This document shows, in pieces, positions 18,975 to 36,360 of a stretch of DNA of 38,205 bases. The DNA is from Methanocellales archaeon. GTDB lineage: Archaea > Halobacteriota > UBA148. Where the stretch lies: contig JASEEV010000008.1 in NCBI GenBank assembly GCA_030019435.1, positions 9,546 to 47,750 of the forward strand, written 5' to 3'. The position numbers and the translations under genes were made by a program. The notes beneath the pieces were generated by a model. It saw nothing but the letters and a program-made list of their open reading frames with translations. It searched no databases and was not told where the DNA came from. Numbering within the stretch: the stretch's first letter is position 1; every line of letters begins with the position of its first letter.

Positions 18975-20021
18975 CTATACTCTCAGAGCTCTTGTAACAA
19001 TTTTAGTCTCAGTGGGATAATTAGGAGCATCCCACGGAAATCTTTCTCCACTTTGCCATTTCTCCCACCTATCTAGATCTTCTTTGACCATTATTTTCAC
19101 CAGTTTGTCGAATTTTACCTTTGGTCTCCAACCCAATTTCTGTTTTGCCTTGGAATAATCCCCTTGCAAGAAATTGACATCTAGAGGTCTGAAAAATCTC
19201 TTATCCACTTTAACATTTTCTTGCCAATCCAAACCAACAACATCGAATGCCTTCTCTGCAAACTCTTTAACAGAGTGGGTCTCGTTTGTCGCAATAACGT
19301 AGTCATCTGGCTCTTTTTGCTGTAGCATTAACCACATTGATTCAACGTACTCAGGAGCATATCCCCAATCCCTCTTTGCATCTAAATTACCGAGTCTCAG
19401 CTCCCTTTCTATTCCCAGAGCAATTTTTGCGACAGCATTAGAAATCTTCCTTGTTACAAATTCTAAACCCCTCAAAGGAGATTCATGATTGAAAAGAATC
19501 CCATTACAGGCAAAAATTTTGTAACCTTCTCTATATATCCTCGTTAGCCAGTAACCGTATAGTTTTGCCGCTGCATAAGGACTGGATGGTTGAAACGGTG
19601 TGTCCTCACTCAGGGATGTGAGATTTCCTCTTCCATATAATTCACTCGTCGATGCTTGGTAAAACCTTATATTCGGATTTATCTGTCTTATCGCCTCCAA
19701 AACTCTTGTCACCCCTAAGCCCGTAATTTCACCTGTGCCGACAGGTTGCTCGAAAGAAGCTCCAACAAAACTTTGGGCCGCTAAATGATACACTTCATCA
19801 GGCTCAGAAATTTTAATTGCCTCAACGATAGAAGTCGTGTCAACCAAATCCGCTGGGATCAGGTTTACACTGTCAAAAATCTCCAAATACTGAAGTCTCC
19901 AGAAGTTTGGCGTTGACAATCTTCTATACGTTCCATAGACCTCATAACCTTTCTCTAACAAAAACTTTGCTAGATATGCACCATCTTGCCCTGTTATTCC
20001 CGTTATCAATACTCTTTCCAT
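18975..20021 (-). CDS. gmd: GDP-mannose 4,6-dehydratase
   Basis: About 348 residues, extended SDR. It starts RVLITGITGQDGAYLAKFLL (the GxxGxDGxYL dinucleotide loop specific to Gmd), then YGTYRRLS, HLAAQSFVGASFEQP, ASTSELYG, SSPYAAAKLYGYW with the YxxxK pair, LFNHESPLRG and RDWGYAPEYVESMW, all Gmd hallmarks. It makes GDP-4-dehydro-6-deoxymannose for the perosamine synthase downstream. ATG 20,021 has GGTGG five bases upstream. The first 27 or so bases are the same as in an SDR remnant at 24,303-24,329, and the left edge of the 3.5-kb duplication falls inside this start. Confidence 0.93.
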   Translation of the reverse strand: MERVLITGITGQDGAYLAKFLLEKGYEVYGTYRRLSTPNFWRLQYLEIFDSVNLIPADLVDTTSIVEAIKISEPDEVYHLAAQSFVGASFEQPVGTGEITGLGVTRVLEAIRQINPNIRFYQASTSELYGRGNLTSLSEDTPFQPSSPYAAAKLYGYWLTRIYREGYKIFACNGILFNHESPLRGLEFVTRKISNAVAKIALGIERELRLGNLDAKRDWGYAPEYVESMWLMLQQKEPDDYVIATNETHSVKEFAEKAFDVVGLDWQENVKVDKRFFRPLDVNFLQGDYSKAKQKLGWRPKVKFDKLVKIMVKEDLDRWEKWQSGERFPWDAPNYPTETKIVTRALRV

Positions 20022-20037
20022 TTTCTCCACCTACTTC

Positions 20038-20338
20038 CCTTTTACAAACTCTCCTGGATTAAGTCGAAAATCGAAGATTTTCAGACTGTTAGAAACCCCG
20101 AAGGGTTTCAACTTATCACTGAATTGGCTGCGATGGTCGCCCCAGCGTTTAACATGCTATTAACTCCCGTGTGAACGTTGTCGCCCATGATCACACCAAG
20201 TTTTCTTCTTCCCGAATCGACGAGCTTGCCCTTTATCATGACCCTGGTGTTTTTCATCGAATCGATGATTGGCGACCTTGGTTCCAGCACCAAGATTGTA
20301 GTTAGTCCCGATGATGCTATGCACGTCCTTTTTTGGAT
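20038..20338 (-). pseudogene. Remnant of the 3' end of a glmU-like gene
   Basis: The minus strand matches the last 75 codons or so of the intact gene at 28,993-30,186 (IIGTNYNLGAGTKVANHRFD-type segment, then MIKGKLVDSGRRKLGVIMGD, SMLNAGATI and the terminal PGEFVK), but with one frameshift. A 50-base hairpin repeat interrupts it eight codons before the end. It begins about ten bases after the hepT stop and ends about eight bases before the gmd start region, the same order (glmU end, then SDR start) as elsewhere in the island. Confidence 0.85.
20063..20112. repeat. Hairpin repeat, form A+D
   Basis: Two dyads in a row: one with stem AAAATC and loop GAAG (20,063-20,086) and one reading GAAACCCCGAAGGGTTTC (20,091-20,109). 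It sits inside the glmU remnant between GGATT and TTATCAC. Confidence 0.6.
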
Positions 20339-20752
20339 TCATTTTTTAACGACATCTTTTACTATGTCTACAAATTGCTTGACTACCTCTATCCTCTTAG
20401 ACACATCAAACACATCTTTTTCTGTCAGGTCGTAGTACTCATGTGATAACAAGTTCCTATAAAATACTAAATTGGATAATCTCTTCTCCAATCCCCCCTC
20501 GATAAATTTATTTTTCGCTAGTAATCTAAAAATCTCTCTGTAAGTAGAGGGCATACCAAGATCGTTCGCCACCACCATTTCTTCTCCCAAATCTATAGTT
20601 CTATTGAGAATGGAGAACAAAACCATCGATAACGAGTAAAAATTTTTCTTATCCTCCAAATCCCCTATTTCCTTTATATCTAATCCTTCCAAATCTCTGA
20701 AATATTTTTCAATATCGCTTATTATCTTCCCGATTCTCTCCGTATCATACAT
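20339..20752 (-). CDS. hepT: HepT-like HEPN RNase toxin (DUF86)
   Basis: About 137 residues, all-alpha. The HEPN active-site motif R-x4-H-x-Y is present as RNLLSHEY near residue 103, where Arg and His cut RNA and the Tyr is the AMPylation target in known HepT proteins. It lies downstream of mntA. ATG 20,752 follows the mntA stop with GGTGA upstream; an in-frame GTG at 20,761 is the alternative. This is the toxin of the MNT/HEPN system, kept silent when MntA adds AMP units to it. Its copy at 24,647 is identical in protein sequence. Confidence 0.9.
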   Translation of the reverse strand: MYDTERIGKIISDIEKYFRDLEGLDIKEIGDLEDKKNFYSLSMVLFSILNRTIDLGEEMVVANDLGMPSTYREIFRLLAKNKFIEGGLEKRLSNLVFYRNLLSHEYYDLTEKDVFDVSKRIEVVKQFVDIVKDVVKK

Positions 20753-20753
20753 T

Positions 20754-21116
20754 TCATTCACCCAAGATACGGGAGCAGTACCTCTTAATCATCGGCTGAA
20801 CATCTAAATAGGATTTGAGGATCTCTGCTTTAACCCTCTGCAATGTTAGATCATCTTTTTTATACAAAATTTTCCCCTCTTTTAAAACCCTAAATTGTAT
20901 CATTGGTGGAAGGTCCCAGAATATGGATATATCTATTTTTTTAGATGAATTGCTCAATATTTCTTCTTTTACTTTTTTTGGGATATCCCTATCTGTGAGC
21001 ACACAGATGTCTATGTCGGAAAATGGCTTTACACTGCCTTTGACCCTAGAGCCGAACAGGTATATTGCCTCAACCTCATCCTTCTTCAATTCATCTATTA
21101 CCTTATCAATCTCCAT
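20754..21116 (-). CDS. mntA: MntA-like nucleotidyltransferase antitoxin
   Basis: 120 residues. The minimal nucleotidyltransferase signature G-S-x10-D-x-D is intact in LFGSRVKGSVKPFSDIDICV, with a third acidic residue likely in KIDISIFWD. In characterised pairs MntA uses ATP to polyadenylylate the HepT active-site tyrosine and so neutralises it. The ATG at 21,116 has a GAGGCGAT-like site upstream. The gene runs directly into hepT as one operon. Confidence 0.9.
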   Translation of the reverse strand: MEIDKVIDELKKDEVEAIYLFGSRVKGSVKPFSDIDICVLTDRDIPKKVKEEILSNSSKKIDISIFWDLPPMIQFRVLKEGKILYKKDDLTLQRVKAEILKSYLDVQPMIKRYCSRILGE

Positions 21117-21192
21117 TTCATCGCCTCTTATTTAATCTCCAATCTTGAAATATTTAAGTCTTCTCCGGTTTATCCCAACGCTTGATGCAACT

Positions 21193-21217
21193 CATTTCAC
21201 AAACTCCCCTGGATTTA
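21193..21217 (-). pseudogene. Tiny glmU 3'-end scar without the hairpin repeat
   Basis: These 25 bases read Ile-Asn-Pro-Gly-Glu-Phe-Val-Lys and a stop, the last codons of the glmU-like gene, directly after the DUF3368 stop. GGATTTATCAC appears here uninterrupted, whereas other scars have the hairpin repeat between GGATT and TTATC. It looks like the empty site for that repeat. Confidence 0.6.
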
Positions 21218-21724
21218 TCACTGAATCTCCCTCTCGATGGTCTTTCTGGCATCCTCATAAACACCCACACTGAGCCACATGACCACTGCCAGTTTATCCA
21301 GAGCGTCCAAAGCCTCGTTCTTCGAGATTTTCTGTACTTTCGCAGCCCTGATCAAGACCCCAATCGAACCGATAACCTCCAATCCTAAGTCAATCGCAAA
21401 CCTCCTTGCTGCAAGATCATCGAGAAGGATTGGACATCTCCTTCTTCTTGCGAGCATTATTGCAATCGCCTCCCCAATTTCTATACCCACCCTTTCTGCA
21501 ATTTCTTTTACCTTATCGTTGATATCGTGATCAATTACGATCCATCCGTTCTCTATTTCATTCTCTATCAAAAATGCATCCGCCATTCCTTCTTCCTTTC
21601 CTCGATCGACAACCTCTTTCTTGGCGGCATAAGGTATAACTACCTCTCCAAACAACTCTTTTAGAAGCTTTAACTTGCCTATTCTCGCGAGGTGTATCAA
21701 TGGACCTGAATTGCTGATGATCAT
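21218..21724 (-). CDS. DUF3368 PIN-like toxin
   Basis: About 168 residues. The fold is PIN-like: IISNSGPLIHLARIGKLKLL with the first acidic position replaced by Asn/Ser as usual for DUF3368, GEAIAIMLARRR as the second site, and LLDDLAARRFAIDLGL plus GSIGVLIRAA as the third. These proteins pair with UPF0175 proteins in archaea and cyanobacteria and are taken as RNase toxins. ATG 21,724 overlaps the antitoxin stop as ATGA, so I prefer it to the ATG at 21,739. The copy at 25,526 is identical. Confidence 0.88.
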   Translation of the reverse strand: MIISNSGPLIHLARIGKLKLLKELFGEVVIPYAAKKEVVDRGKEEGMADAFLIENEIENGWIVIDHDINDKVKEIAERVGIEIGEAIAIMLARRRRCPILLDDLAARRFAIDLGLEVIGSIGVLIRAAKVQKISKNEALDALDKLAVVMWLSVGVYEDARKTIEREIQ

Positions 21725-22023
21725 TCTTGCATGGCCCATTGAACGTCCACATCCAAATCCTCTTTTTCATATCGAAAAGGGATGTTTTTCTTCTTTAATT
21801 CTTCCAGTGCTCCCCTATATGTCATTCCAGCCATTCCCGCTGCTTTCCAAAGAGATACCTTCCCCTCACCATACGATTCTAATGCCTTTTTGATACGATA
21901 TTCTCTCAAGGCATTCCCCAGGAGTTTGCGCAGCATCGTACCCTTATCGATGGCCTCCAATTTGCACGCCTCTTCAATATCATGCAAGTATTCTTCTGGC
22001 AGTCTGACAGATATTGTTCTCAT
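21721..22023 (-). CDS. UPF0175 family antitoxin
   Basis: About 100 residues. The N-terminal RTISVRLPEEYLHDIEEAC resembles a ribbon-helix-helix start, and KVSLWKAAGMAGMTYRGALE is the helix-turn-helix typical of UPF0175; the C-terminus (IPFRYEKEDLDVDVQW) is the toxin-contacting tail. ATG 22,023 has AGGTG six bases upstream. A TATA-like CTTAAGTATAC near 22,060-22,070 lies about 40 bases upstream. It probably represses its own operon. Confidence 0.87.
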   Translation of the reverse strand: MRTISVRLPEEYLHDIEEACKLEAIDKGTMLRKLLGNALREYRIKKALESYGEGKVSLWKAAGMAGMTYRGALEELKKKNIPFRYEKEDLDVDVQWAMQE

Positions 22024-22151
22024 GTTTTTCACCTACGTTACATCTTGTTATAATGTATACTTAAGGGTTTGGATGTACTTATTTGAATCCATGCATGACA
22101 AGGGACGGTATCTTTAAAAGCAAGAAATTCTCCTCTTTCGAGAGCTCTTGC

Positions 22152-22168
22152 CCTTGACATGTTGTCAA
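22152..22168. repeat. Short perfect palindrome
   Basis: CTTGAC, five bases, GTCAAG. It lies between the UPF0175 promoter and the SDR scar and could be an operator or a hairpin. It is also in copy 2 at 26,460-26,476. The rest of 22,024-22,511 holds only scars and the hairpin repeat. Confidence 0.4.
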
Positions 22169-22196
22169 GCACTGACTATTTCATCGCCAGCGAAAT

Positions 22197-22246
22197 ATTC
22201 CGCAGTATGAGAGCCCATTAAATCCTGCTCCATATGTGACTAATAT
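22197..22246 (-). pseudogene. Remnant of the 5' end of an SDR epimerase gene
   Basis: The minus strand reads ILVTYGAGFNGLSYCG, a decayed form of [15 protein letters not shown]-type dinucleotide-binding starts seen in the intact SDR at 36,388-37,338. No further homology follows. Confidence 0.55.
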
Positions 22247-22291
22247 TTTTTCTGCCAATTTTGTCACCTATCACAAAAATCTTTTACATAG

Positions 22292-22503
22292 TTTTACAAA
22301 CTCTCCTGGATTAAGTCGAAAATCGAAAATTTTCAGACTGTCGCAGATTGCAAATCTGCTAGAGTTCACAACTCATGGAGTTGGAACAGTTAGAAACCCC
22401 GAAGGGATTCAACTTATCGCTGAATTGGCTCTAATAGTGGCGCCAGCGTTTAACATGCTGTTGATGCCTGTACGCACGTCGTCTCCCATGATCACGCCAA
22501 GCT
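22292..22503 (-). pseudogene. Remnant of the 3' end of a glmU-like gene
   Basis: From eight bases after the vapC stop the minus strand reads LGVIMGDDVRTGINSMLNAG and more of the glmU tail, including bases the same as in the intact gene. It is split by a 99-base hairpin repeat and closes with PGEFVK. The SDR 5' scar follows about 45 bases on. Confidence 0.85.
22315..22413. repeat. Hairpin repeat, long form A+B+C+D
   Basis: Four successive dyads: AAAATCGAAAATTTT; GCAGATTGCAAATCTGC; an imperfect dyad around CAACTCATGGAGTTG; and GAAACCCCGAAGGGATTC. It occupies the same position in the glmU scar as the shorter forms, so size varies by whole hairpins. Confidence 0.6.
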
Positions 22504-22511
22504 TACCATGT

Positions 22512-23006
22512 TCATCCCCATCGAACTATATCAGGGACCAAATCAAAGTCATCGTCATATGATGCGATGTCATTGATTTTTAATTCTTTCATCGTTGCAA
22601 CATGAATCGCATCCCTCGGAAAAAGACCCATCCTCATCACGTCAACGAACGTCCCGATCGTTCTCTCTGGCACGGGGACTACTTTCAGTTTGCTGAACGA
22701 AGCAATCCAGTCTATGATCTCCCCTGCATCATCGCAGTATTTTTTTATTTTCTCTGGGCTATCTCTCATGACATCTGCTATGTGCAAATTCTCACGTATC
22801 TTCATAAGTGCACCAATGTAATTAAAAACTATCTCATCTACAACGAGAACAGATATGATGCCTTCAAATTCTTTATCTGCCAGTCGCTGAAAGAAATCTT
22901 CCGTCTTCTCATTGACCCTTGGATCATCTGAGCCCAGGAGATACTTGAGAAAAATCGTGGCATCAATATAGATTTTGTCGCCGCTAAACTGGTCTATTGG
23001 GTTCAC
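22512..23006 (-). CDS. vapC: PIN-domain RNase toxin (VapC-like)
   Basis: About 164 residues. IYIDATIFLKYLL gives the first catalytic Asp, VDEIVFNY the Glu, FPRDAIHVATM the second Asp and IASYDDDFDLV the last acidic pair, so the PIN site is complete. It should cleave RNA with Mg2+ when its antitoxin is lost. GTG 23,006 follows the antitoxin stop with GGTGA four bases upstream and gives an N-terminus like that of the deleted PIN gene at 37,497; an ATG at 23,042 would overlap the antitoxin by 32 bases. The copy at 26,820 is identical. Confidence 0.88.
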   Translation of the reverse strand: MNPIDQFSGDKIYIDATIFLKYLLGSDDPRVNEKTEDFFQRLADKEFEGIISVLVVDEIVFNYIGALMKIRENLHIADVMRDSPEKIKKYCDDAGEIIDWIASFSKLKVVPVPERTIGTFVDVMRMGLFPRDAIHVATMKELKINDIASYDDDFDLVPDIVRWG

Positions 23007-23010
23007 ATTT

Positions 23011-23262
23011 TCACCGCTGATATTCAGCTTTTTCCATTTCATCTCTGAACCGCTTGAACTCTTTTTCGCTCATTCTCATGCCAAGGCGGAGTTCTTCACC
23101 TTTTTTCATGGGATTCACCTTTCGCTTGATTATGAGTTCGTCCTCTTGGATCTCGATTGTGAGCGTATCCCCTTCCTCAATGCCCCATTCTTCCCTTATG
23201 ACTTTTGGCAATGTCACCTGACCTCTTTTTCCAACATACCACTTGCTTTTGATGGCACTCAT
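23011..23262 (-). CDS. AbrB/MazE-type antitoxin
   Basis: 83 residues. The swapped-hairpin AbrB DNA-binding domain is clear: YVGKRGQVTLPKVIREEWGI then EGDTLTIEIQEDELIIK. The C-terminal helix (EKEFKRFRDEMEKAEYQR) would bind the PIN toxin encoded next. The ATG has GGTGAT upstream. It differs from its copy at 27,319 by a single residue (Asn versus Asp before PMKK). Four TCAGAA-type boxes lie upstream. Confidence 0.9.
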   Translation of the reverse strand: MSAIKSKWYVGKRGQVTLPKVIREEWGIEEGDTLTIEIQEDELIIKRKVNPMKKGEELRLGMRMSEKEFKRFRDEMEKAEYQR

Positions 23263-23285
23263 GAAATCACCAGCTAAAAATACTT

Positions 23286-23347
23286 CGTTCTGATATATAA
23301 GTTTATCTGAATTCTTTTTTATTCAGAATAATAATAGTTTTCAGAAT
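23286..23347. promoter_or_regulatory. Promoter with four TTCTGA/TCAGAA boxes, likely AbrB operator
   Basis: Boxes at 23,287-23,294, 23,306-23,314, 23,322-23,329 and 23,340-23,347 share the core CTGA/TCAG in both orientations, around a TATA-like TTATATAT. This is a good candidate for autoregulation by the adjacent AbrB protein. Confidence 0.5.
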
Positions 23348-23388
23348 ATCATTTAAATGATTATGAGTTCTTAGATTCGCTTGACACA

Positions 23389-23475
23389 ACTCCTTTCACA
23401 GACTCTCCTGGATTAAGTCGAAAATCGAAGGGTTTCAACTTATCGCTGAATTGGCTGCGATGATGAACGGACAAA
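23389..23475 (-). pseudogene. glmU 3'-end scar with a shortened hairpin repeat
   Basis: A short glmU tail remnant (AANSA, then the repeat, then PGEFVK-like codons with a changed base). Upstream, 23,476-23,504 reads a stretch with KGAG before a stop, like the start of the flippase fragment at 28,589-28,756. Confidence 0.6.
23417..23439. repeat. Hairpin repeat, deleted form (A/D hybrid)
   Basis: This is the left half of hairpin A joined to the right half of hairpin D at their common CGAAG loop. It is what a deletion between the two loops of form A+D would leave. Confidence 0.55.
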
Positions 23476-23506
23476 ACCAGACTTCTGCATCTATCCTGCT
23501 CCTTTC

Positions 23507-23917
23507 CTATGCAATTTCTTTTGGGTCGACTCGCTGGATGTCTGGTAAGACATCAAAGTCAGCATCATAAGAGAGTATCTTCTCTATACCATTTTCCATC
23601 ATGCATTGATATGCCAACGCATCATCAAAATTCAGCCCAAAATTTTTCATATGAGATGTTGCGCTTATCCTACTGCCCAGAGTCATTGGCTGTACCGTTA
23701 ATCCCTCATATCTGAGAAGCCCGGAAAGAAAGATCGCAATGTCCCTCCATCCCAATTTGTAGTTCTCCATGACCACTATGACGGCATCAACATGGAAATC
23801 AGTTATCATCCCCCTTAATTCACCGTCTTTGAATCTGCTTAGAACATCCTTGGAGTGCATGCCCTTGGGTTGGCCTAATTCAACCTCCAAGAATATGTTG
23901 GCGTCGACCAGATACAT
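23507..23917 (-). CDS. vapC: PIN-domain toxin VapC
   Basis: About 136 residues. YLVDANIFLEVEL holds the first Asp, FHVDAVIVVMENY the acidic middle position, LNFDDALAYQCM the third and ILSYDADFDVLP the last, so the active site is complete. ATG 23,917 starts one base after the antitoxin stop (23,919). It lies in the unique 0.8 kb between the two copies of the large repeat and has no duplicate in the window. Confidence 0.88.
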   Translation of the reverse strand: MYLVDANIFLEVELGQPKGMHSKDVLSRFKDGELRGMITDFHVDAVIVVMENYKLGWRDIAIFLSGLLRYEGLTVQPMTLGSRISATSHMKNFGLNFDDALAYQCMMENGIEKILSYDADFDVLPDIQRVDPKEIA

Positions 23918-23918
23918 C

Positions 23919-24197
23919 CTATTGCCCCATAGCCCTTCTTGATCTGATTTTAGCCACCTCATGTTGTAGCTCGACGCCTGATTTATCTACATGTGAGAGC
24001 ATGCCCCAAATCGACTCCACTGGATCTTCTGGTGGCTCCATTATTTTGAGGGCTTCTTTCGTCCTGGTGGCCCATTCATCTAGAGCTTTTTCTGCGGCAA
24101 GACTAATAGATCCCTTTTTGTACCCGAAACTGCTCATAGCCGCCTCTCTAAATTTTTTTTCCACATCATCTGAGATACAAACTTTTATACCACCCAT
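23919..24197 (-). CDS. VapB-type antitoxin
   Basis: About 92 residues from ATG 24,197. The N-terminus KVCISDDVEKKFREAA resembles a short ribbon-helix-helix domain, followed by YKKGSISLAAEKALDEW and a charged tail reaching the toxin start. The same frame stays open up to 24,338, but that extension is SDR sequence plus promoter, so the long chimeric reading is an artefact. Its likely promoter is the AT-rich 24,209-24,240 stretch with a doubled TACCTTAA. Confidence 0.75.
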   Translation of the reverse strand: MGGIKVCISDDVEKKFREAAMSSFGYKKGSISLAAEKALDEWATRTKEALKIMEPPEDPVESIWGMLSHVDKSGVELQHEVAKIRSRRAMGQ

Positions 24198-24248
24198 CTT
24201 AATTCCCAATGATATTAAGGTATTAAGGTATAAAAATCCTTCTCTGAT

Positions 24249-24329
24249 GACTTCGTTCTTGCCCAACAAAAACTCCGCCAAGTGAGAGCCGACGAAACCG
24301 GATATTCCCGTTATCAATACTCTTTCCAT
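24249..24329 (-). pseudogene. 5' remnant of an SDR gene (gmd/rmd-like start)
   Basis: Reads MERVLITGISGFVGSHLAEF and six more residues, then runs out where the VapB promoter begins. The first nine codons equal those of gmd, but GFVGSHL shows a different SDR, perhaps a GDP-sugar reductase or epimerase. The TA pair probably landed just inside this gene. Confidence 0.7.
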
Positions 24330-24345
24330 TTTCTCCACCTACTTC

Positions 24346-24646
24346 CCTTTTACAAACTCTCCTGGATTAAGTCGAAAATCGAAGATTTTCAGACTGTTAG
24401 AAACCCCGAAGGGTTTCAACTTATCACTGAATTGGCTGCGATGGTCGCCCCAGCGTTTAACATGCTATTAACTCCCGTGTGAACGTTGTCGCCCATGATC
24501 ACACCAAGTTTTCTTCTTCCCGAATCGACGAGCTTGCCCTTTATCATGACCCTGGTGTTTTTCATCGAATCGATGATTGGCGACCTTGGTGCCAGCACCA
24601 AGATTGTAGTTGGTTCCGATGATGCTATGCACGTCCTTTTTTGGAT
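24346..24646 (-). pseudogene. glmU 3'-end remnant, copy 2
   Basis: Same as the remnant at 20,038-20,338 apart from a few bases; contains the A+D hairpin repeat. Confidence 0.85.
24371..24420. repeat. Hairpin repeat, form A+D, copy 2
   Basis: Same as 20,063-20,112, offset 4,308. Confidence 0.6.
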
Positions 24647-25060
24647 TCATTTTTTAACGACATCTTTTACTATGTCTACAAATTGCTTGACTACCTCTAT
24701 CCTCTTAGACACATCAAACACATCTTTTTCTGTCAGGTCGTAGTACTCATGTGATAACAAGTTCCTATAAAATACTAAATTGGATAATCTCTTCTCCAAT
24801 CCCCCCTCGATAAATTTATTTTTCGCTAGTAATCTAAAAATCTCTCTGTAAGTAGAGGGCATACCAAGATCGTTCGCCACCACCATTTCTTCTCCCAAAT
24901 CTATAGTTCTATTGAGAATGGAGAACAAAACCATCGATAACGAGTAAAAATTTTTCTTATCCTCCAAATCCCCTATTTCCTTTATATCTAATCCTTCCAA
25001 ATCTCTGAAATATTTTTCAATATCGCTTATTATCTTCCCGATTCTCTCCGTATCATACAT
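24647..25060 (-). CDS. hepT: HepT-like HEPN toxin, second copy
   Basis: Protein identical to the one at 20,339-20,752, including the RNLLSHEY active site. With its own intact mntA upstream it should work independently, or cross-talk fully with the first copy. Confidence 0.9.
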   Translation of the reverse strand: MYDTERIGKIISDIEKYFRDLEGLDIKEIGDLEDKKNFYSLSMVLFSILNRTIDLGEEMVVANDLGMPSTYREIFRLLAKNKFIEGGLEKRLSNLVFYRNLLSHEYYDLTEKDVFDVSKRIEVVKQFVDIVKDVVKK

Positions 25061-25061
25061 T

Positions 25062-25424
25062 TCATTCACCCAAGATACGGGAGCAGTACCTCTTAATCAT
25101 CGGCTGAACATCTAAATAGGATTTGAGGATCTCTGCTTTAACCCTCTGCAATGTTAGATCATCTTTTTTATACAAAATTTTCCCCTCTTTTAAAACCCTA
25201 AATTGTATCATTGGTGGAAGGTCCCAGAATATGGATATATCTATTTTTTTAGATGAATTGCTCAATATTTCTTCTTTTACTTTTTTTGGGATATCCCTAT
25301 CTGTGAGCACACAGATGTCTATGTCGGAAAATGGCTTTACACTGCCTTTGACCCTAGAGCCGAACAGGTATATTGCCTCAACCTCATCCTTCTTCAATTC
25401 ATCTATTACCTTATCAATCTCCAT
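25062..25424 (-). CDS. mntA: MntA-like antitoxin, second copy
   Basis: Protein identical to 20,754-21,116 with the complete G-S-x10-D-x-D motif. It forms an operon with the second hepT. Confidence 0.9.
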   Translation of the reverse strand: MEIDKVIDELKKDEVEAIYLFGSRVKGSVKPFSDIDICVLTDRDIPKKVKEEILSNSSKKIDISIFWDLPPMIQFRVLKEGKILYKKDDLTLQRVKAEILKSYLDVQPMIKRYCSRILGE

Positions 25425-25500
25425 TTCATCGCCTCTTATTTAATCTCCAATCTTGAAATATTTAAGTCTTCTCCGGTTTATCCCAACGCTTGATGCAACT

Positions 25501-25525
25501 CATTTCACAAACTCCCCTGGATTTA
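25501..25525 (-). pseudogene. glmU 3'-end scar without hairpin repeat, copy 2
   Basis: Same as 21,193-21,217. Confidence 0.6.
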
Positions 25526-26032
25526 TCACTGAATCTCCCTCTCGATGGTCTTTCTGGCATCCTCATAAACACCCACACTGAGCCACATGACCACTGCCAG
25601 TTTATCCAGAGCGTCCAAAGCCTCGTTCTTCGAGATTTTCTGTACTTTCGCAGCCCTGATCAAGACCCCAATCGAACCGATAACCTCCAATCCTAAGTCA
25701 ATCGCAAACCTCCTTGCTGCAAGATCATCGAGAAGGATTGGACATCTCCTTCTTCTTGCGAGCATTATTGCAATCGCCTCCCCAATTTCTATACCCACCC
25801 TTTCTGCAATTTCTTTTACCTTATCGTTGATATCGTGATCAATTACGATCCATCCGTTCTCTATTTCATTCTCTATCAAAAATGCATCCGCCATTCCTTC
25901 TTCCTTTCCTCGATCGACAACCTCTTTCTTGGCGGCATAAGGTATAACTACCTCTCCAAACAACTCTTTTAGAAGCTTTAACTTGCCTATTCTCGCGAGG
26001 TGTATCAATGGACCTGAATTGCTGATGATCAT
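25526..26032 (-). CDS. DUF3368 PIN-like toxin, second copy
   Basis: Protein identical to 21,218-21,724; overlaps the upstream antitoxin stop as ATGA. Confidence 0.88.
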   Translation of the reverse strand: MIISNSGPLIHLARIGKLKLLKELFGEVVIPYAAKKEVVDRGKEEGMADAFLIENEIENGWIVIDHDINDKVKEIAERVGIEIGEAIAIMLARRRRCPILLDDLAARRFAIDLGLEVIGSIGVLIRAAKVQKISKNEALDALDKLAVVMWLSVGVYEDARKTIEREIQ

Positions 26033-26331
26033 TCTTGCATGGCCCATTGAACGTCCACATCCAAATCCTCTTTTTCATATCGAAAAGGGATGTTTTTCTT
26101 CTTTAATTCTTCCAGTGCTCCCCTATATGTCATTCCAGCCATTCCCGCTGCTTTCCAAAGAGATACCTTCCCCTCACCATACGATTCTAATGCCTTTTTG
26201 ATACGATATTCTCTCAAGGCATTCCCCAGGAGTTTGCGCAGCATCGTACCCTTATCGATGGCCTCCAATTTGCACGCCTCTTCAATATCATGCAAGTATT
26301 CTTCTGGCAGTCTGACAGATATTGTTCTCAT
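26029..26331 (-). CDS. UPF0175 antitoxin, second copy
   Basis: Protein identical to 21,721-22,023, with the same TATA-like box and AGGTG site. Confidence 0.87.
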   Translation of the reverse strand: MRTISVRLPEEYLHDIEEACKLEAIDKGTMLRKLLGNALREYRIKKALESYGEGKVSLWKAAGMAGMTYRGALEELKKKNIPFRYEKEDLDVDVQWAMQE

Positions 26332-26504
26332 GTTTTTCACCTACGTTACATCTTGTTATAATGTATACTTAAGGGTTTGGATGTACTTATTTGAATCCAT
26401 GCATGACAAGGGACGGTATCTTTAAAAGCAAGAAATTCTCCTCTTTCGAGAGCTCTTGCCCTTGACATGTTGTCAAGCACTGACTATTTCATCGCCAGCG
26501 AAAT

Positions 26505-26554
26505 ATTCCGCAGTATGAGAGCCCATTAAATCCTGCTCCATATGTGACTAATAT
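26505..26554 (-). pseudogene. SDR 5'-end remnant, copy 2
   Basis: Same as 22,197-22,246. Confidence 0.55.
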
Positions 26555-26599
26555 TTTTTCTGCCAATTTTGTCACCTATCACAAAAATCTTTTACATAG

Positions 26600-26811
26600 T
26601 TTTACAAACTCTCCTGGATTAAGTCGAAAATCGAAAATTTTCAGACTGTCGCAGATTGCAAATCTGCTAGAGTTCACAACTCATGGAGTTGGAACAGTTA
26701 GAAACCCCGAAGGGATTCAACTTATCGCTGAATTGGCTCTAATAGTGGCGCCAGCGTTTAACATGCTGTTGATGCCTGTACGCACGTCGTCTCCCATGAT
26801 CACGCCAAGCT
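26600..26811 (-). pseudogene. glmU 3'-end remnant, copy 2
   Basis: Same as 22,292-22,503, interrupted by the long hairpin repeat. Confidence 0.85.
26623..26721. repeat. Hairpin repeat, long form, copy 2
   Basis: Same as 22,315-22,413. Confidence 0.6.
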
Positions 26812-26819
26812 TACCATGT

Positions 26820-27314
26820 TCATCCCCATCGAACTATATCAGGGACCAAATCAAAGTCATCGTCATATGATGCGATGTCATTGATTTTTAATTCTTTCAT
26901 CGTTGCAACATGAATCGCATCCCTCGGAAAAAGACCCATCCTCATCACGTCAACGAACGTCCCGATCGTTCTCTCTGGCACGGGGACTACTTTCAGTTTG
27001 CTGAACGAAGCAATCCAGTCTATGATCTCCCCTGCATCATCGCAGTATTTTTTTATTTTCTCTGGGCTATCTCTCATGACATCTGCTATGTGCAAATTCT
27101 CACGTATCTTCATAAGTGCACCAATGTAATTAAAAACTATCTCATCTACAACGAGAACAGATATGATGCCTTCAAATTCTTTATCTGCCAGTCGCTGAAA
27201 GAAATCTTCCGTCTTCTCATTGACCCTTGGATCATCTGAGCCCAGGAGATACTTGAGAAAAATCGTGGCATCAATATAGATTTTGTCGCCGCTAAACTGG
27301 TCTATTGGGTTCAC
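26820..27314 (-). CDS. vapC: PIN-domain toxin, second copy
   Basis: Protein identical to 22,512-23,006 with all PIN acidic residues. Confidence 0.88.
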   Translation of the reverse strand: MNPIDQFSGDKIYIDATIFLKYLLGSDDPRVNEKTEDFFQRLADKEFEGIISVLVVDEIVFNYIGALMKIRENLHIADVMRDSPEKIKKYCDDAGEIIDWIASFSKLKVVPVPERTIGTFVDVMRMGLFPRDAIHVATMKELKINDIASYDDDFDLVPDIVRWG

Positions 27315-27318
27315 ATTT

Positions 27319-27570
27319 TCACCGCTGATATTCAGCTTTTTCCATTTCATCTCTGAACCGCTTGAACTCTTTTTCGCTCATTCTCATGCCAAGGCGGAGT
27401 TCTTCACCTTTTTTCATGGGATCCACCTTTCGCTTGATTATGAGTTCGTCCTCTTGGATCTCGATTGTGAGCGTATCCCCTTCCTCAATGCCCCATTCTT
27501 CCCTTATGACTTTTGGCAATGTCACCTGACCTCTTTTTCCAACATACCACTTGCTTTTGATGGCACTCAT
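27319..27570 (-). CDS. AbrB-type antitoxin, second copy
   Basis: Differs from the 23,011-23,262 protein at one residue (Asp instead of Asn before PMKK), the only protein-level difference I found between the two repeat copies. Confidence 0.9.
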   Translation of the reverse strand: MSAIKSKWYVGKRGQVTLPKVIREEWGIEEGDTLTIEIQEDELIIKRKVDPMKKGEELRLGMRMSEKEFKRFRDEMEKAEYQR

Positions 27571-27593
27571 GAAATCACCAGCTAAAAATACTT

Positions 27594-27655
27594 CGTTCTG
27601 ATATATAAGTTTATCTGAATTCTTTTTTATTCAGAATAATAATAGTTTTCAGAAT
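27594..27655. promoter_or_regulatory. AbrB promoter/operator boxes, copy 2
   Basis: Same four TTCTGA/TCAGAA boxes as 23,286-23,347. Confidence 0.5.
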
Positions 27656-27696
27656 ATCATTTAAATGATTATGAGTTCTTAGATTCGCTTGACACA

Positions 27697-27783
27697 ACTC
27701 CTTTTACAAACTCTCCTGGATTAAGTCGAAAATCGAAGGGATTCAACTTATCGCTGAATTGGCTGCGATGATGAACGGACAAA
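27697..27783 (-). pseudogene. glmU 3'-end scar, copy 2 of the short form
   Basis: Matches 23,389-23,475 with three base changes. Just upstream (27,797-27,830) the minus strand reads KIAKGAG and then a stop, like the start of the flippase fragment at 28,589-28,756. Confidence 0.6.
27725..27747. repeat. Hairpin repeat, deleted form, copy 2
   Basis: A/D hybrid as at 23,417-23,439, with A instead of T in the last stem. Confidence 0.55.
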
Positions 27784-27914
27784 ACCAGACTTCTGCATCT
27801 ATCCAGCTCCTTTTGCGATTTTCTTTATTTTGCTTGTACTTGCTCCCTTATTGTATATAAACACACATAAAAGTAGCACATAATAAATTGATCATCAGAA
27901 AAACCAGCATGTTT

Positions 27915-28316
27915 TTATGGAACTTCATCAGGTTCGTACCTGGTTAAATTAGGAACAACGTCATATGCAGCATCGGTCGAGATTATTATTCTATCCTGAC
28001 TTAATGCAGTTGCTGCATGGTGGGAGTCAAAAAATGTGAGATTATAGTTCCTCCTCAAAGCAATGCTGGATATGACCATTTCTGGTGTTATCGGCAAAAA
28101 TTTTATGTTTTTTATGCCTTTCAAAGCCATCACACTGCCAAGTAGTTCATCCTCTCTATCCTCGCTCTTGAAAATTAGTTCCATCTCTAGTAGGCATGCT
28201 GATGATGCTTCTACATTTAGCTTTTTATGAAACCTGGAAAATAGTATTTCGGCTTTTCCATGATTTGGATCCAGTTCGTTCATGTATGCAAAGATGACAT
28301 CGTTCTCTATGAGCAA
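27915..28316 (-). CDS. vapC: PIN-domain toxin VapC
   Basis: About 133 residues. IENDVIFAYMNELDPNH gives the first Asp, SACLLEMELIF the Glu, LTFFDSHHAATAL the second Asp and IISTDAAYDVVP the last. I prefer TTG 28,316: AGGTGATC, a full anti-16S match, lies just upstream and the protein then begins at the usual PIN N-terminus. An ATG at 28,352 would overlap the antitoxin by 32 bases. Ends YEPDEVP, a common VapC tail in this island. Confidence 0.85.
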   Translation of the reverse strand: MLIENDVIFAYMNELDPNHGKAEILFSRFHKKLNVEASSACLLEMELIFKSEDREDELLGSVMALKGIKNIKFLPITPEMVISSIALRRNYNLTFFDSHHAATALSQDRIIISTDAAYDVVPNLTRYEPDEVP

Positions 28317-28320
28317 GAGA

Positions 28321-28563
28321 TCACCTACTGGTGGATGCCTCCCTAATAACAAGTTCTTCAGCTATTTTTCTTAGTTCTTTGAACGTTTTTGGTGTGTTAA
28401 AGCTTCCATGCAGCTCTTTGAAGGGGTCTGATGGAGCAGGGTAAATACCTATATGATTTCCCAAGTCTACCAAAACCGCACTGTCTTTCAATCCAAGCTT
28501 TTCAATCATATCCTTTGGGATGACTATTCTGTTTTTTCCGTCAATCGATATTGTACTAGCCAT
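28321..28563 (-). CDS. AbrB-type antitoxin
   Basis: 80 residues. STISIDGKNRIVIPKDMIEK and LGLKDSAVLVDLGNHIGIYP form the AbrB hairpin domain; the rest is a helical toxin-binding tail. Four bases separate its stop from the vapC TTG. Unrelated in detail to the AbrB protein in the 3.5-kb repeat. Confidence 0.88.
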   Translation of the reverse strand: MASTISIDGKNRIVIPKDMIEKLGLKDSAVLVDLGNHIGIYPAPSDPFKELHGSFNTPKTFKELRKIAEELVIREASTSR

Positions 28564-28588
28564 ATTTTTGCACCCATAAACCTTTTAG

Positions 28589-28756
28589 TTACGGGATTAG
28601 TATAAAGTTTTCCCTTAAATCAGCCATTGGGTCCAAATTGGTGATGAGCATCTGTAGCCAAAACTCATGCCAATGATTTGTGAAGCCTGTCCCTGCCCCT
28701 TTTGCAATTTTTCTTAGCGAAACATCCAGATGGGAGACTTCTGAGCTTGATGTCAT
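28589..28756 (-). pseudogene. Possible 5' remnant of a polysaccharide flippase gene
   Basis: A 55-codon minus-strand frame starting SSSEVSHLDVSLRKIAKGAG, which looks like the cytosolic N-terminus that precedes helix 1 in many archaeal Wzx proteins (the line usually runs on into a hydrophobic segment). Here the reading turns polar at once (TGFTNHWHEF) and ends, so only the gene start remains. Similar KIAKGAG bits occur beside the scars at 23,490 and 27,800. Confidence 0.4.
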
Positions 28757-28992: not shown

Positions 28993-30186
28993 CTACTTCA
29001 CAAACTCTCCTGGATTAATGGTTGAATTGGCATCAATAACTGCTCCAGCGTTTAACATGCTGTTGATGCCTGTACGCACGTCGTCTCCCATGATCACGCC
29101 AAGTTTTCTTCTTTTCGAGTCTACAAGTTCACCTTTTATCATCACTTTGATGTTTTTCTCATCCAATCGTAGGTTGGCTACCTTTGTACCTGCACCAAGA
29201 TTGCAGTTAGTCCCAATGATGCTATCACCTACATAGCTCAGATGACCGATGTTTGTTCCGCTCATCACAATCGAATTCTTTATTTCAACGGCATTTCCAA
29301 TGCGAACATCGTCGCCCAGAGACGTGCTTGGACGAATGAGACAGTTCGGCCCAACATCGCAGTTTTCACCTATCGCAACTGGACCAACTATGTAGGCACC
29401 ATTTCGGATGATCGTGTTTTTACCAACTATGATCGGTTCTTTAATTGTCGCATATGGCTCGACCGTTCCTTGTATGTCAGTTTCTATGTCCTTCAAAAGG
29501 AGTTCGTTTGCATCCAGCAGATCCCATGGTCTACCAATATCAAACCAATAATCAATGACTTGATAACCGACAGCATAACCATCATCGATCAGTATTTGTA
29601 ATGAATCTGTTATTTCGTGCTCGCCTCTTGAAGATAAGAGTGTTTTGTCGATCGCATCGAATACCTCTGGCTCGAATACGTAGATTCCGGCATTAGCAAG
29701 ATTAGAGGGTGGGCTTTTCGATTTCTCGACTACTCTGGTAACCCTATCGCCCTGCACCTCGATGACTCCAAATTCTTGGGGATTGTCCACCTCTTTTACA
29801 GCCAGAACCACATCTTTTTTCTCCTTCATCAAGCTTTGTAGATCCATGGACTGAACTAGCACGTCACCATTTAAAGCCAAAAATCGACCATCTACAAGGT
29901 TTTCGGCAACTTTAACAGCATTGGCAGTCCCCAACTGCTTCTTCTGCTCTGCATATTCTATGTGGACGTCCCACCTGGAGCCGACTCCAAAATGATTCAT
30001 AATGGTATCAGATCGATATCCCACTATGAACACAAACTCGCTGATCCCCGCATCTCTAACTGCAAGCATGATGTGCTCTAATATCGGCTTATTCCCCACA
30101 GGTAGCATCACCTTGGGGCGGTTTTGCGTTAATGGACGCATCCTGGTTCCTTCACCAGCTGCAAGAATTACAGCTTTCAAATTCAT
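28993..30186 (-). CDS. glmU: Bifunctional sugar-1-P nucleotidylyltransferase/acetyltransferase (archaeal GlmU-like)
   Basis: About 397 residues. The N-terminal domain has AVILAAGEGTRMRPLT, RPKVMLPVGNKP, LGTANAVKVAE, FLALNGDVLV and HEITDSLQILIDDG. The C-terminal half is a left-handed beta-helix (IVGKNTIIRNGAYIVGPVAI and further repeats) ending in GTNCNLGAGTKVANLRLDEK, KLGVIMGDDVRTGINSMLNA and INPGEFVK, the pattern of archaeal enzymes that acetylate glucosamine-1-P and then join it to UTP. With glmS it supplies UDP-GlcNAc. ATG 30,186 has a GGGAT site; an ATG at 30,237 would run into the divergent promoter. Its 3' end is the parent of all glmU scars in the island. Confidence 0.9.
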   Translation of the reverse strand: MNLKAVILAAGEGTRMRPLTQNRPKVMLPVGNKPILEHIMLAVRDAGISEFVFIVGYRSDTIMNHFGVGSRWDVHIEYAEQKKQLGTANAVKVAENLVDGRFLALNGDVLVQSMDLQSLMKEKKDVVLAVKEVDNPQEFGVIEVQGDRVTRVVEKSKSPPSNLANAGIYVFEPEVFDAIDKTLLSSRGEHEITDSLQILIDDGYAVGYQVIDYWFDIGRPWDLLDANELLLKDIETDIQGTVEPYATIKEPIIVGKNTIIRNGAYIVGPVAIGENCDVGPNCLIRPSTSLGDDVRIGNAVEIKNSIVMSGTNIGHLSYVGDSIIGTNCNLGAGTKVANLRLDEKNIKVMIKGELVDSKRRKLGVIMGDDVRTGINSMLNAGAVIDANSTINPGEFVK

Positions 30187-30252
30187 CCCTATAGGGTTGT
30201 TCAACTTTGGATATAAAACTTGAGTGCCGATCTTCAAAAAGAATAAGACTTA

Positions 30253-33799: not shown

Positions 33800-33953
33800 A
33801 TTGAGTATTCTATCATTATTTAAAGTATCTAAATTTTTATAGACTTCCCATTTCCCATTGGCATCATACCCTATCCTCATAGCTTCTTATACAATAATTT
33901 TTCACACAGATGCGAGCCTATGAATCCTGCTCCGCCAGTTACAAGGTTTTCAT
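33800..33953 (-). pseudogene. Internally deleted SDR gene: 5' and 3' ends only
   Basis: The 5' part (33,877-33,953) reads MKTL then, after one missing base, [17 protein letters not shown], almost the start of the intact SDR. After about 25 bases the 3' part (33,800-33,844) matches that gene's last codons KSIKI and 20 bases beyond its stop (compare 36,365-36,406). So the middle of an SDR copy, about 0.9 kb, is gone. Its ATG overlaps the stop of the membrane gene upstream. Confidence 0.7.
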
Positions 33954-33958
33954 ATTTT

Positions 33959-34314
33959 TCATATTATCCTACCACCAATAACTAATCGAGTAATGATTCC
34001 AACAATCATCGCAAAGGCTATGCTTAGAAGCGTGCCAATCAAATAGTACTCAGCCATTTTCCTATCCTTTAATTCATTGAATCTCGCAATGGATTTGGCA
34101 GCAAAAATAACTGTTATTGCTGTGTATTGATCGACCAACACAAATGTCAAAACTATAATTCTCTCAATTACTCCTATCACCATACCAGCACCTTTCAAGC
34201 CACCGCCCAACCCTTTCTCATATCTCCTGAGCATTAGTTTAATGAAATAAGCACCGATGACGCTTACGGTGATATATGCGAAATTATCACAGCAATTTTG
34301 AAGGTATAATTCAT
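33959..34314 (-). CDS. Small membrane protein, DUF3307-like C-terminal region, frameshifted
   Basis: From ATG 34,314, one base after the SatD gene's stop and with GGAG upstream, the reading MNYTFKIAVII breaks at about 34,280. Adding one base in the short A/T run joins it to FAYITVSVIGAYFIKLMLRR and then to the open frame 34,234-33,959. That frame contains GVIERIIVLTFVL, FAAKSIARFNELKDRKMAEY and YLIGTLLSIAFAM, which match my memory of the C-terminal half of DUF3307 proteins. Three to four helices. No DUF3307 N-terminal domain exists here. It is probably the partner of the SatD protein. Confidence 0.6.
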
Positions 34315-34315
34315 C

Positions 34316-35011
34316 TCATCTTTCTCCTTTATCAGCCATTTCTGGCTTATATCCTTCTGTCAACCATTTTTGGCTTATAAAATCCCCAAAACTCCTCTCC
34401 GCCCCCTCTACCATCTTGTATTTGCTCCTCTTTAATATTTTAGAAATAGTTTGTTTTGTTATCTTCATGTCGTCCGCTATCTCTTCTAATGTGATATCAC
34501 CTTTCTTACTTTTTGCCCTTTTGTAGTGCGTTATAACTTCTTTCTGCCTTCCAGTCCAACTCCACATCACATCTGCCATGAAATTCAATAAACACGTGAC
34601 AATCCCATCGATTTCCCTCTCACTTTTGAATTTAATCCATACATTCTCTTTTTTTGCCTGCTCTAAAGCATCAAATGCCTTATGAAACGCCTCACCATCC
34701 ATCTCCCCTACGTTCTCGCTTAAATGTGTGGATATGCTACCAACACCAACTCCTAAATAGAACTGATGACCGATGTTTTCAAAAAGCACATAATAAATAT
34801 CAAATAAATATCTAGGGGAGGAGAGCATTCCCTGAAAACTGTCCCCACGCACAACTATAAATTCTGCGACTATCGAATCCTCAAATCTTTTATTGATTAT
34901 CGTTAAGGCGTTCTTTAAACCCTCTTGAATTTTCGCCCTATCTTCCAACTTCCTTGAAGACTTCAGATCCCCAGTTACAACGACATATCTATCTTGCAAT
35001 GTTGGAACCAT
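34316..35011 (-). CDS. SatD-family protein with C-terminal helix-turn-helix
   Basis: About 231 residues. YVVVTGDLKSSRKLEDRAKI, then FIVVRGDSFQGML and FYLGVGVGSISTHLSENVGE, then GEAFHKAFDALEQAK fit the SatD family. The C-terminus (WTGRQKEVITHY, then ITLEEIADDMKITKQTISKI) is a helix-turn-helix. The order of a GD-x-F-x-G turn and a following G-V-G-x-G-x-I strand recalls palm-type nucleotidyl cyclase folds, but no catalytic assignment can be made from one sequence. Start ATG 35,011 has GGTG five bases upstream. It is coupled to the small membrane protein gene and lies between SDR scars. Confidence 0.75.
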   Translation of the reverse strand: MVPTLQDRYVVVTGDLKSSRKLEDRAKIQEGLKNALTIINKRFEDSIVAEFIVVRGDSFQGMLSSPRYLFDIYYVLFENIGHQFYLGVGVGSISTHLSENVGEMDGEAFHKAFDALEQAKKENVWIKFKSEREIDGIVTCLLNFMADVMWSWTGRQKEVITHYKRAKSKKGDITLEEIADDMKITKQTISKILKRSKYKMVEGAERSFGDFISQKWLTEGYKPEMADKGER

Positions 35012-35030
35012 CATATCACCCAGTTTCAAT

Positions 35031-35066: not shown

Positions 35067-36360
35067 CTACATATAACATGCCGGAATGAATTTTATTAAG
35101 GTTTTTTCGAGTTTGATCTCACCCCAGTAATCCTTTGTGATGATTAAAGCTCTTCCTGGGTTATAAGCTGAGATAAAACTTCTAAAACTTTTTGAGATGG
35201 CTGGCTTTTTGAACGTGGCATATTTGACTTCTACCGGGATTACTTCACCTCCAACATTTAAAATAAAGTCAACTTCTGCTTTTCCAAGGGTTCTCCAGTA
35301 ATTTACCTTTTCTGTCAAGTGAGACAGCTGATTTAAAGCAAAGTTTTCAACCAAGGCTCCAGCATCAACCCTTTTTTCCAGCTCGTTAAAGTTGTTTATC
35401 ACATAATTTCTTAAACCAGGATCAACGAAGTAGACTTTTGGGTTCTTCCTCAGTTCTGTTCTAAGATTTCTATAAAAGGGTCGTATATTTCTTATAACGA
35501 AGGTTTCTTCTAAAACCTCTAGAAGCCCAAGAATTTCCTTATAATAAGAGTTGCAAAGAGATGCCAACTCATTGTAGTTGATCATACCACCCAACTGAGA
35601 ACTCAGCAAGGTTGTAAGCCTTCTAAATTTGAATACATCGTGAATTTTCAGCAGCTCTATTATCTCTCTCCCTATATAAGTCTCATAGATATTCTTTATT
35701 ATCACCCGCTTGGTCTCTTCATCTCTGGTTTTAATGACCTCTGGATATCCACCAAATGTGATGAACTCCTCCAACAAATTTTCAAAATCCTTGAGGAATA
35801 TATCACTTTCTACTGTAAAATTCTCTCCTTTCGAAATGAAATTGTTAACAAGCTCGTTTCTTTTTTTGTATATCCTCCAAAGCCTCTCGTCCCTTGCCTT
35901 TAGAAACTCACCGAGGTTAAAAGGAAATAGATAAAAGGAGAACATCCTTCCAACCAAATACTTAGATGTTGCACCTGTCAGCTCCAATGAAGAAGACCCA
36001 GTGACTATAAATTTTACATTTTCAGTTATGTCGTATAAGAGTTTTAGCTTCTGCCCCCCCCTCCTCCACATAGTGGAGCTCATCAAGAAGAAAATAGTAT
36101 TTCTGTTTCTCATCCAGAACAAAACTTTTAATAAATCCCTCTGGGTCCAAGCTGAATTTTTCCAGATTCTCCCTGTCTTCAAATGTGATAAAGATTATGT
36201 TTTTAGGATTTGCCTTCTTCGTTTTTATTAGCCAATCCCTTAGCATGAACAAAATAGTTGTCTTTCCCGCTTGTCTGGGTCCCTTTATTATGTAAACTTC
36301 CTTTCTGCCCATCCATTTCTTGAGTTGCTCAAGAATCTCTCTTTCATAATACTTTTTCAT
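35067..36360 (-). CDS. DUF4143-type AAA ATPase, split by a frameshift in a G8 tract
   Basis: Two overlapping frames make one gene of about 430 codons. The first (36,360 to about 36,055) has the Walker A loop IKGPRQAGKTT and the Walker B stretch YYFLLDELHYVEE. After a run of eight G (plus C run 36,054-36,061) the other frame continues GQKLKLLYDITENVKFIVTG, SSSLELTG and the DUF4143 domain with a PD-(D/E)xK-like EVDFILNVGGEVIPVEVKYA. Seven G would join them in the usual family spacing, so one extra G breaks the gene. Such ATPases are frequent stand-alone accessory genes in archaea; their function is unclear. SDR 3'-end sequence lies on both sides of it. Confidence 0.85.

Follow-up and report, generated by a model that had tools for sequence, protein, structure and literature searches.

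Palm-fold proteins encoded next to a membrane protein have a described precedent in the two-gene operon of Panoptes, in which the synthase OptS binds metals through the aspartates D6 and D57, both required for activity, and the membrane protein OptE consists of two transmembrane segments and a beta-rich nucleotide-binding domain (PMC12657218). The pair analysed here, a protein of the SatD family followed by a small membrane protein, resembles Panoptes in its operon arrangement, in the structural similarity of OptS to the predicted SatD model (9mnr, TMt 0.57) and in an aspartate pair at the palm metal site. It differs in that its membrane partner is modelled as four helices with no beta domain of the S-2TM-beta type, unlike OptE, and in that OptS has no helix-turn-helix (HTH), whereas SatD is a separate sequence family that carries one. 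With class III nucleotidyl cyclases, among them the one of Pycsar, SatD shares the predicted fold, the order of its elements, both metal-site Asp residues and an IGxxxG strand, yet SatD has no evident transition-state residues, bears an added C-terminal HTH and is paired with a different effector. Regulators of the PucR/CdaR type, such as Rv2242, likewise combine a degenerate palm-like domain with an HTH, but in SatD the two metal-site aspartates are retained, and its gene comes with that of a membrane partner; PucR-type palms are not known to have this aspartate pair.

The SatD gene was examined in a window of 38,205 nucleotides from the genome of a Methanocellales archaeon (contig JASEEV010000008.1). 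Neither SatD nor its partner matched a family in PADLOC-DB 2.0.0, where only the HTH region gave matches, and this rules out a defence family catalogued there. The pair was undescribed in the literature searched, in which we found no paper mentioning PF16264 or PF11750, the Pfam models of SatD and DUF3307; DUF3307 was mentioned in one paper found, as a jumbo phage protein.

Linkage of SatD and a membrane protein core

Profiles were built for SatD from 87 sequences and for the core of the partner from 76 sequences (107 positions). The survey anchored on SatD gave 92 distinct matches, 85 of them intact, from archaea, Calditrichota, Planctomycetota, Proteobacteria and Bacteroidota, and for 77 of the 85 distinct intact SatD genes the next gene on the same strand was an intact partner carrying the 107-residue membrane core. 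One of the eight others (L012) stops at a contig edge; at L021, L061 and L101 SatD stands without an adjacent partner and with no visible remnants of one. The two genes are closely spaced, the partner starting between −30 and +30 nucleotides from the SatD stop codon in 56 of the 76 pairs measured, with many ATGA overlaps. When the search was anchored on the partner instead, SatD lay upstream in 55 of the 60 loci read, the exceptions being three loci of a single archaeal genus in which a DUF3307 protein occurs without SatD (L136, L137 and L140), a contig edge (L161) and unlinked genes (L061/L164). The last of these are a natural unlinked pair from one genome of the phylum Calditrichota (G434), with SatD on L061 and the DUF3307 protein on L164, on separate contigs. 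Many partners from genomes with no Pfam SatD match are preceded by a diverged SatD, and the Pfam model PF16264 overlooks many true relatives on proteobacterial plasmids, which our wider profile scores at 120–137 bits.

Linkage of this kind was seen in Halobacteriota, Calditrichota and Planctomycetota, and on plasmids of Proteobacteria, Bacteroidota and Haloarchaea. A scan of genome contigs yielded 13 archaeal loci (Methanophagales, Methanosarcinales or ANME-1), one from Planctomycetota and one from Caldithrix, with a membrane gene immediately after SatD in almost all of them. A preliminary description of this DNA had named SatD and DUF3307 genes as neighbours in bacteria and proposed a survey of their co-occurrence; from both anchors, the two proved to be near-obligate neighbours. 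SatD and the membrane protein corresponding to the DUF3307 C-terminus almost certainly constitute a conserved two-gene module, in which two families of unassigned function are near-obligate partners across archaea and bacteria.

The boundary of the partner family had to be corrected in the course of this work. Judged by homology, the conserved partner of SatD is the C-terminal membrane core of DUF3307 proteins, which has no Pfam model, and not the Pfam DUF3307 domain. In haloarchaea, Bacteroidota and Proteobacteria, SatD is followed by full-length DUF3307 proteins, to whose C-terminus this core is homologous; a single profile retrieves the short partners as well as the C-terminal parts of DUF3307 proteins of 250 residues. 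The short partner of ANME-1 consists of the C-terminal core alone, whereas the Pfam DUF3307 model spans the opposite end, so that the short partner is without the N-terminal PF11750 domain, as it is without any Pfam match. A search with PF11750 gave zero matches in the window frame, in the intact partner at L008 and in the whole window genome, which rules out the partner as a PF11750 member. The core has five invariant residues, G41, E44, R71, Y83 and G87 (in the numbering of the first row of the alignment). An AlphaFold2 model of the intact L008 homologue shows four helices and found no structural match in the PDB; the partner is predicted to be all-helical, with neither a beta domain nor a soluble nucleotide-binding domain. 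The earlier impression that the membrane protein resembles only the helical end of DUF3307 agrees with these results, in that the open reading frame after SatD in the window shows homology to the helices at the C-terminal end of DUF3307 proteins.

Predicted fold and metal site of SatD

An AlphaFold2 model of SatD made from 14 sequences (pLDDT 81.7) predicts strands and helices in the order b-a-b-b-a-b-a-b, the topology of class III cyclases and palm domains, and after these come further helices and the HTH. Searched against the PDB with Foldseek, the model matched adenylyl and guanylyl cyclases of class III with a probability of 1.00 and, further, Cas10 (4doz), a GGDEF domain (3qyy) and OptS, at modest E-values of ~0.001–0.01; rank 1 was Rv2242, a fragment of a transcription regulator. 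Sequence searches found no solved structure of a SatD relative. Profile comparison with hhalign gave the SatD palm alignment a probability of 80.7% against class III cyclases and 55.9% against GGDEF, where 30 column shuffles reached at most 2.1% and 4.7%, respectively, and where class III cyclases compared with GGDEF, as a yardstick on the same scale, gave 84.6%. The cyclase and GGDEF domains for this comparison were taken from the same genomes; the cyclase set was cut by coordinates, and at least one of its segments (L213) is wrong, an error that can be expected only to lower the score with SatD.

The hhalign alignment places D15 of SatD on the first cyclase Asp and D57 on the second. Among the 87 SatD sequences, weighted by 47 clusters, D15 is conserved at 98%, S19 at 99%, G56 at 98%, D57 at 100% and G106 at 94%. 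At the position of the GGDEF hairpin the family has the consensus GDEF, which lacks the first G, and the window protein reads GDSF. The helix that corresponds to the one with the cyclase transition-state Asn and Arg contains no invariant Asn or Arg in SatD (H110, 47%; Arg at position 113, 53%). The likeness to palm and cyclase folds that the preliminary description had read from the GD-x-F and G-V-G-x-G motifs, and had proposed to check by structure prediction, is therefore upheld by the predicted palm/cyclase fold, by the profile comparison with its shuffled controls and by the near-invariant D15 and D57. On this predicted structure, SatD very probably has a palm fold in which the metal site is preserved.

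The explanation that we favour, although only tentatively, is that SatD makes or senses a nucleotide, binds DNA and controls its membrane partner; catalysis, signal, control and partner action are all steps that we infer. SatD and the membrane protein would act as one functional module, in which D15 and D57 would let SatD bind a metal and a nucleoside triphosphate; SatD would either make a nucleotide signal or sense by means of the nucleotide it has bound. The HTH of SatD would most likely regulate its own operon, while the nucleotide-dependent state of SatD would control the small multi-helix membrane protein, and the latter would carry out the response, probably a membrane change. The conserved linkage, the fold class, the conserved metal-site residues and the HTH are what the analysis shows; the linkage, the fold with its profile match, the metal-site residues with the comparable aspartate pair of OptS, the decay of the partner beside an intact SatD and the portability of the pair on a Klebsiella plasmid support this explanation. 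Several observations stand against it: the cyclase transition-state Asn and Arg are not evidently conserved, the Foldseek E-values are modest with Rv2242 at rank 1, SatD genes without a partner and partners without SatD exist, a SatD-like protein of Aerococcus stands beside DUF975, and the partner, as modelled, has neither a soluble nucleotide-binding domain nor a fold match in the PDB. A conserved HTH is, moreover, unusual for signal synthases. It is possible, but rather doubtful, that SatD proteins are synthases of nucleotide signals whose family has so far gone unrecognised and has a DNA-binding domain of its own, and that the DUF3307 C-terminal core is a new class of signal-gated membrane effector, the two forming a widespread signalling or immune module in archaea and bacteria. 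If SatD does make or read a nucleotide, the pair would be a signalling module of wide occurrence that is missing from today's catalogues of defence and signalling.

A different possibility is that SatD is a transcription regulator whose palm only senses a ligand, in the manner of PucR and CdaR, with the membrane protein as a sensor, transporter or anchor feeding SatD, and with no signal and no toxic effector. Conservation of the HTH in most of the SatD family, the regulator fragment at rank 1 of the structural matches, and a broad chromosomal distribution among housekeeping neighbours are all what such a regulator would lead one to expect. The metal-site aspartates, however, are near-invariant over the 47 clusters, which exceeds the need of a purely structural palm, and a search upstream of the ANME-1 copies showed no conserved sequence resembling an operator, although this was a weak test; we consider a regulator of this kind possible but unlikely.

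The window copy and the decay of the partner

The SatD-family gene of the window lies at 34316–35011 on the minus strand, encodes 231 residues and is intact and single-copy in the genome (1.42 Mb). Its product matches positions 1–199 of the 211 positions of PF16264 at 82.5 bits (cut-off 29). Alternative starts are a TTG at 35029 and an ATG at 35014, and the stop codon occupies 34318–34316. The predicted palm, or class III cyclase-like, domain comprises residues 8–130 (34622–34990, minus strand), as delimited by the AlphaFold2 model, Foldseek and hhalign, and includes the motifs GDSFQG (residues 56–61) and GVGVG (residues 87–91). Within it, the codon of D15, the first predicted metal-binding Asp (34967–34969, minus strand), is at the end of strand 1 and aligns with the Asp of the cyclase FxDI motif, and that of D57, the second (34841–34843, minus strand), is in the GD(E/S)F hairpin and aligns with cyclase GDA and GGDEF. 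The C-terminal HTH at residues 154–195 (34427–34552, minus strand) scores 24.9 bits against Sigma70_r4 (cut-off 24.1), so that the original assignment of a SatD-family protein with an HTH was correct; most members of the family have one.

The partner gene is not intact. One base past the SatD stop, the ATG at 34314–34312 opens a frame, MNYTFKIAVIISHISP, that ends at the stop at 34264 (34264–34314, minus strand); it is closed after 16 codons, MNYTFKIAVIIS then HISP and the stop, where in the intact relatives the reading runs on as AYIIVSIIGAYFIKLMLRRYE. A nucleotide alignment of ten copies, the window and nine relatives, places a one-base deletion at about 34280–34281 of the minus strand. The remainder of the gene (33959–34279, minus strand), in the shifted frame, is otherwise undamaged to its stop and corresponds by homology to the C-terminal core of DUF3307 proteins. 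The DUF3307-like frame as a whole (33959–34315) scores 150.8 bits with the partner HMM, yet its first ATG, GTG or TTG is only at 34234, with none near SatD. An intact coupled pair in the window is ruled out by the deletion: the one-base translational coupling noticed at first fails here, where the ATG belongs to the other frame of 16 codons, but holds in intact relatives, with an ATGA overlap at L008 and a one-base gap at L010. The window stretch is one intact gene and one frameshifted gene, or contains an assembly error. Unless the missing base is such an error, the frameshift in the partner probably makes the window copy of the pair, as assembled, an inactive or decaying one. Upstream of SatD, a DUF4143/AAA_14 ATPase is split into two overlapping frames (35067–36182 and 36022–36360); its relative at L038 is a single frame and is found downstream of SatD there. 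Given the frameshifted partner and the split ATPase beside SatD, this stretch is either decaying or contains assembly errors.

Damage to the partner with SatD intact recurs in five archaeal copies with five different lesions, namely one base missing in the window, one base added at L018, an internal deletion at L009, an internal replacement at L011 and loss of the 3′ part at L038. In the ANME-1-type set no damaged SatD was found next to a partner that was clearly intact; for the broken SatD copies at L020/L006, L074 and L084, the sequence read contains no partner, and both genes are partial at L082. By gene length alone, the chance that none of the five lesions would fall in SatD is about 0.4%, a figure drawn from few cases and draft genomes. 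This asymmetry hints that SatD is the controlling half of the pair, as it would be under the nucleotide-dependent control that we favour; loss of the membrane gene with SatD kept would then be tolerable.

A toxin–antitoxin (TA) or abortive-infection pair, in which the membrane protein would be toxic and SatD would hold it in check by binding it directly or by repression, with no nucleotide involved, would also explain why the partner was lost first in five ANME-1-type copies, and would suit the carriage of the pair as plasmid cargo and its TA- or defence-rich surroundings in some cases. In Streptococcus pyogenes, satD is reported to be alone among accessory genes in reaching the top quarter of essentiality scores (PMC11323703), which would fit a gene that restrains something else. 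We nevertheless hold such a pair to be improbable: the order of SatD and partner is fixed, SatD is the larger protein and has an enzyme-like active site, the asymmetry of lesions comes from the few cases given above, one genus has partners without SatD, and a relative in Lactobacillales has another partner. The latter, a SatD-like protein of Aerococcus without the GD motif (L251, 5917–8709), is followed by a different membrane family, DUF975, so that a swap of DUF975 for the DUF3307 core is possible in Lactobacillales; barnase/barstar-like genes precede it. If SatD makes or reads a nucleotide, as in our favoured explanation, there would be a testable reason for the essentiality of satD in S. 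pyogenes, provided that the strains carry the partner.

The closest SatD to that of the window, at L038, is 79% identical. No SatD was found in the ten genomes searched of the family and order to which the window genome belongs, and against the best ANME-1-family genome tested the window glmS is only 43% identical, compared with about 72% for SatD, which together suggest that SatD moved horizontally. The low identity of glmS also leaves a wholly ANME-1 origin of the contig unsupported. SatD is patchy in its occurrence, being present in 51 of 394 Halobacteriota genomes and 15 of 294 Planctomycetota genomes.

Genomic surroundings of the pair

The preliminary description placed the pair in an island otherwise full of TA pairs. 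TA genes (HepT/MntA, PIN, MazE-like and UPF0175) are indeed found at about 20–31.7 kb of the window, but they are interspersed with sugar-nucleotide genes. It had also suggested a check for enrichment near defence genes, for which 126 neighbour proteins from 20 chromosomal loci were compared with 135 from control stretches of the same contigs; this weak test on a small sample gave no clear excess of genuine systems over the controls in the top-25 PADLOC lists. The matches to cysteine desulfurase and kinase models are of a housekeeping type, and no Pfam family occurred in more than 2 of the 126 neighbour proteins. Phage records yielded no matches to the pair, viral contigs none, and E. coli genomes no DNA-level relatives of two of the plasmid pairs.

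Several plasmid copies of the pair do lie in defence- or TA-rich stretches, although general enrichment near defence genes is not supported. A Klebsiella plasmid of 4.4 kb carries the pair as its main cargo, with little else; on a Pseudomonas fragi plasmid it occurs with TA genes and on an Enterobacter plasmid near an ATPase–helicase pair. On a plasmid of Sphingomonas insulae (L026, 2965–10455) it adjoins a separate cyclase with a Pycsar effector, and a TIR gene and an ATPase–helicase pair are close by.

A housekeeping envelope or acid-tolerance function unrelated to nucleotide signalling, to which the name SatD (secretion and acid tolerance), its association with the Streptococcus mutans sat operon (reported in PMC11323703) and the position of several ANME-1 copies ahead of sugar-nucleotide genes might point, is very unlikely in view of the patchy occurrence, the carriage on plasmids, the absence of SatD from the ten searched genomes of the window genome's family and order and the lack of a recurring neighbour family.

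In four loci of the ANME-1 family (L042, L048, L050 and L051), a diaminopimelate epimerase-like gene comes after the SatD pair. In the window, the truncated head of an NAD-dependent epimerase gene (33877–33963) directly follows the SatD partner, and another such head (23919–24338) is fused ahead of a different open reading frame near a PIN gene. Positions 19990–28600 of the window are a tandem duplication with a period of 4308 nucleotides and nearly identical open reading frames, so that a block of HepT/MntA, PIN with UPF0175, and PIN with an AbrB-like gene is present twice; this is either a recent duplication or an assembly artefact. A repeat of 136 nucleotides occurs in five copies with 62–100% identity (at 20120, 22421, 24428, 26729 and 29023) and matches, by position, the 3′ end of a sugar nucleotidyltransferase gene (28993–30237), fragments of which lie like scars between the TA modules.
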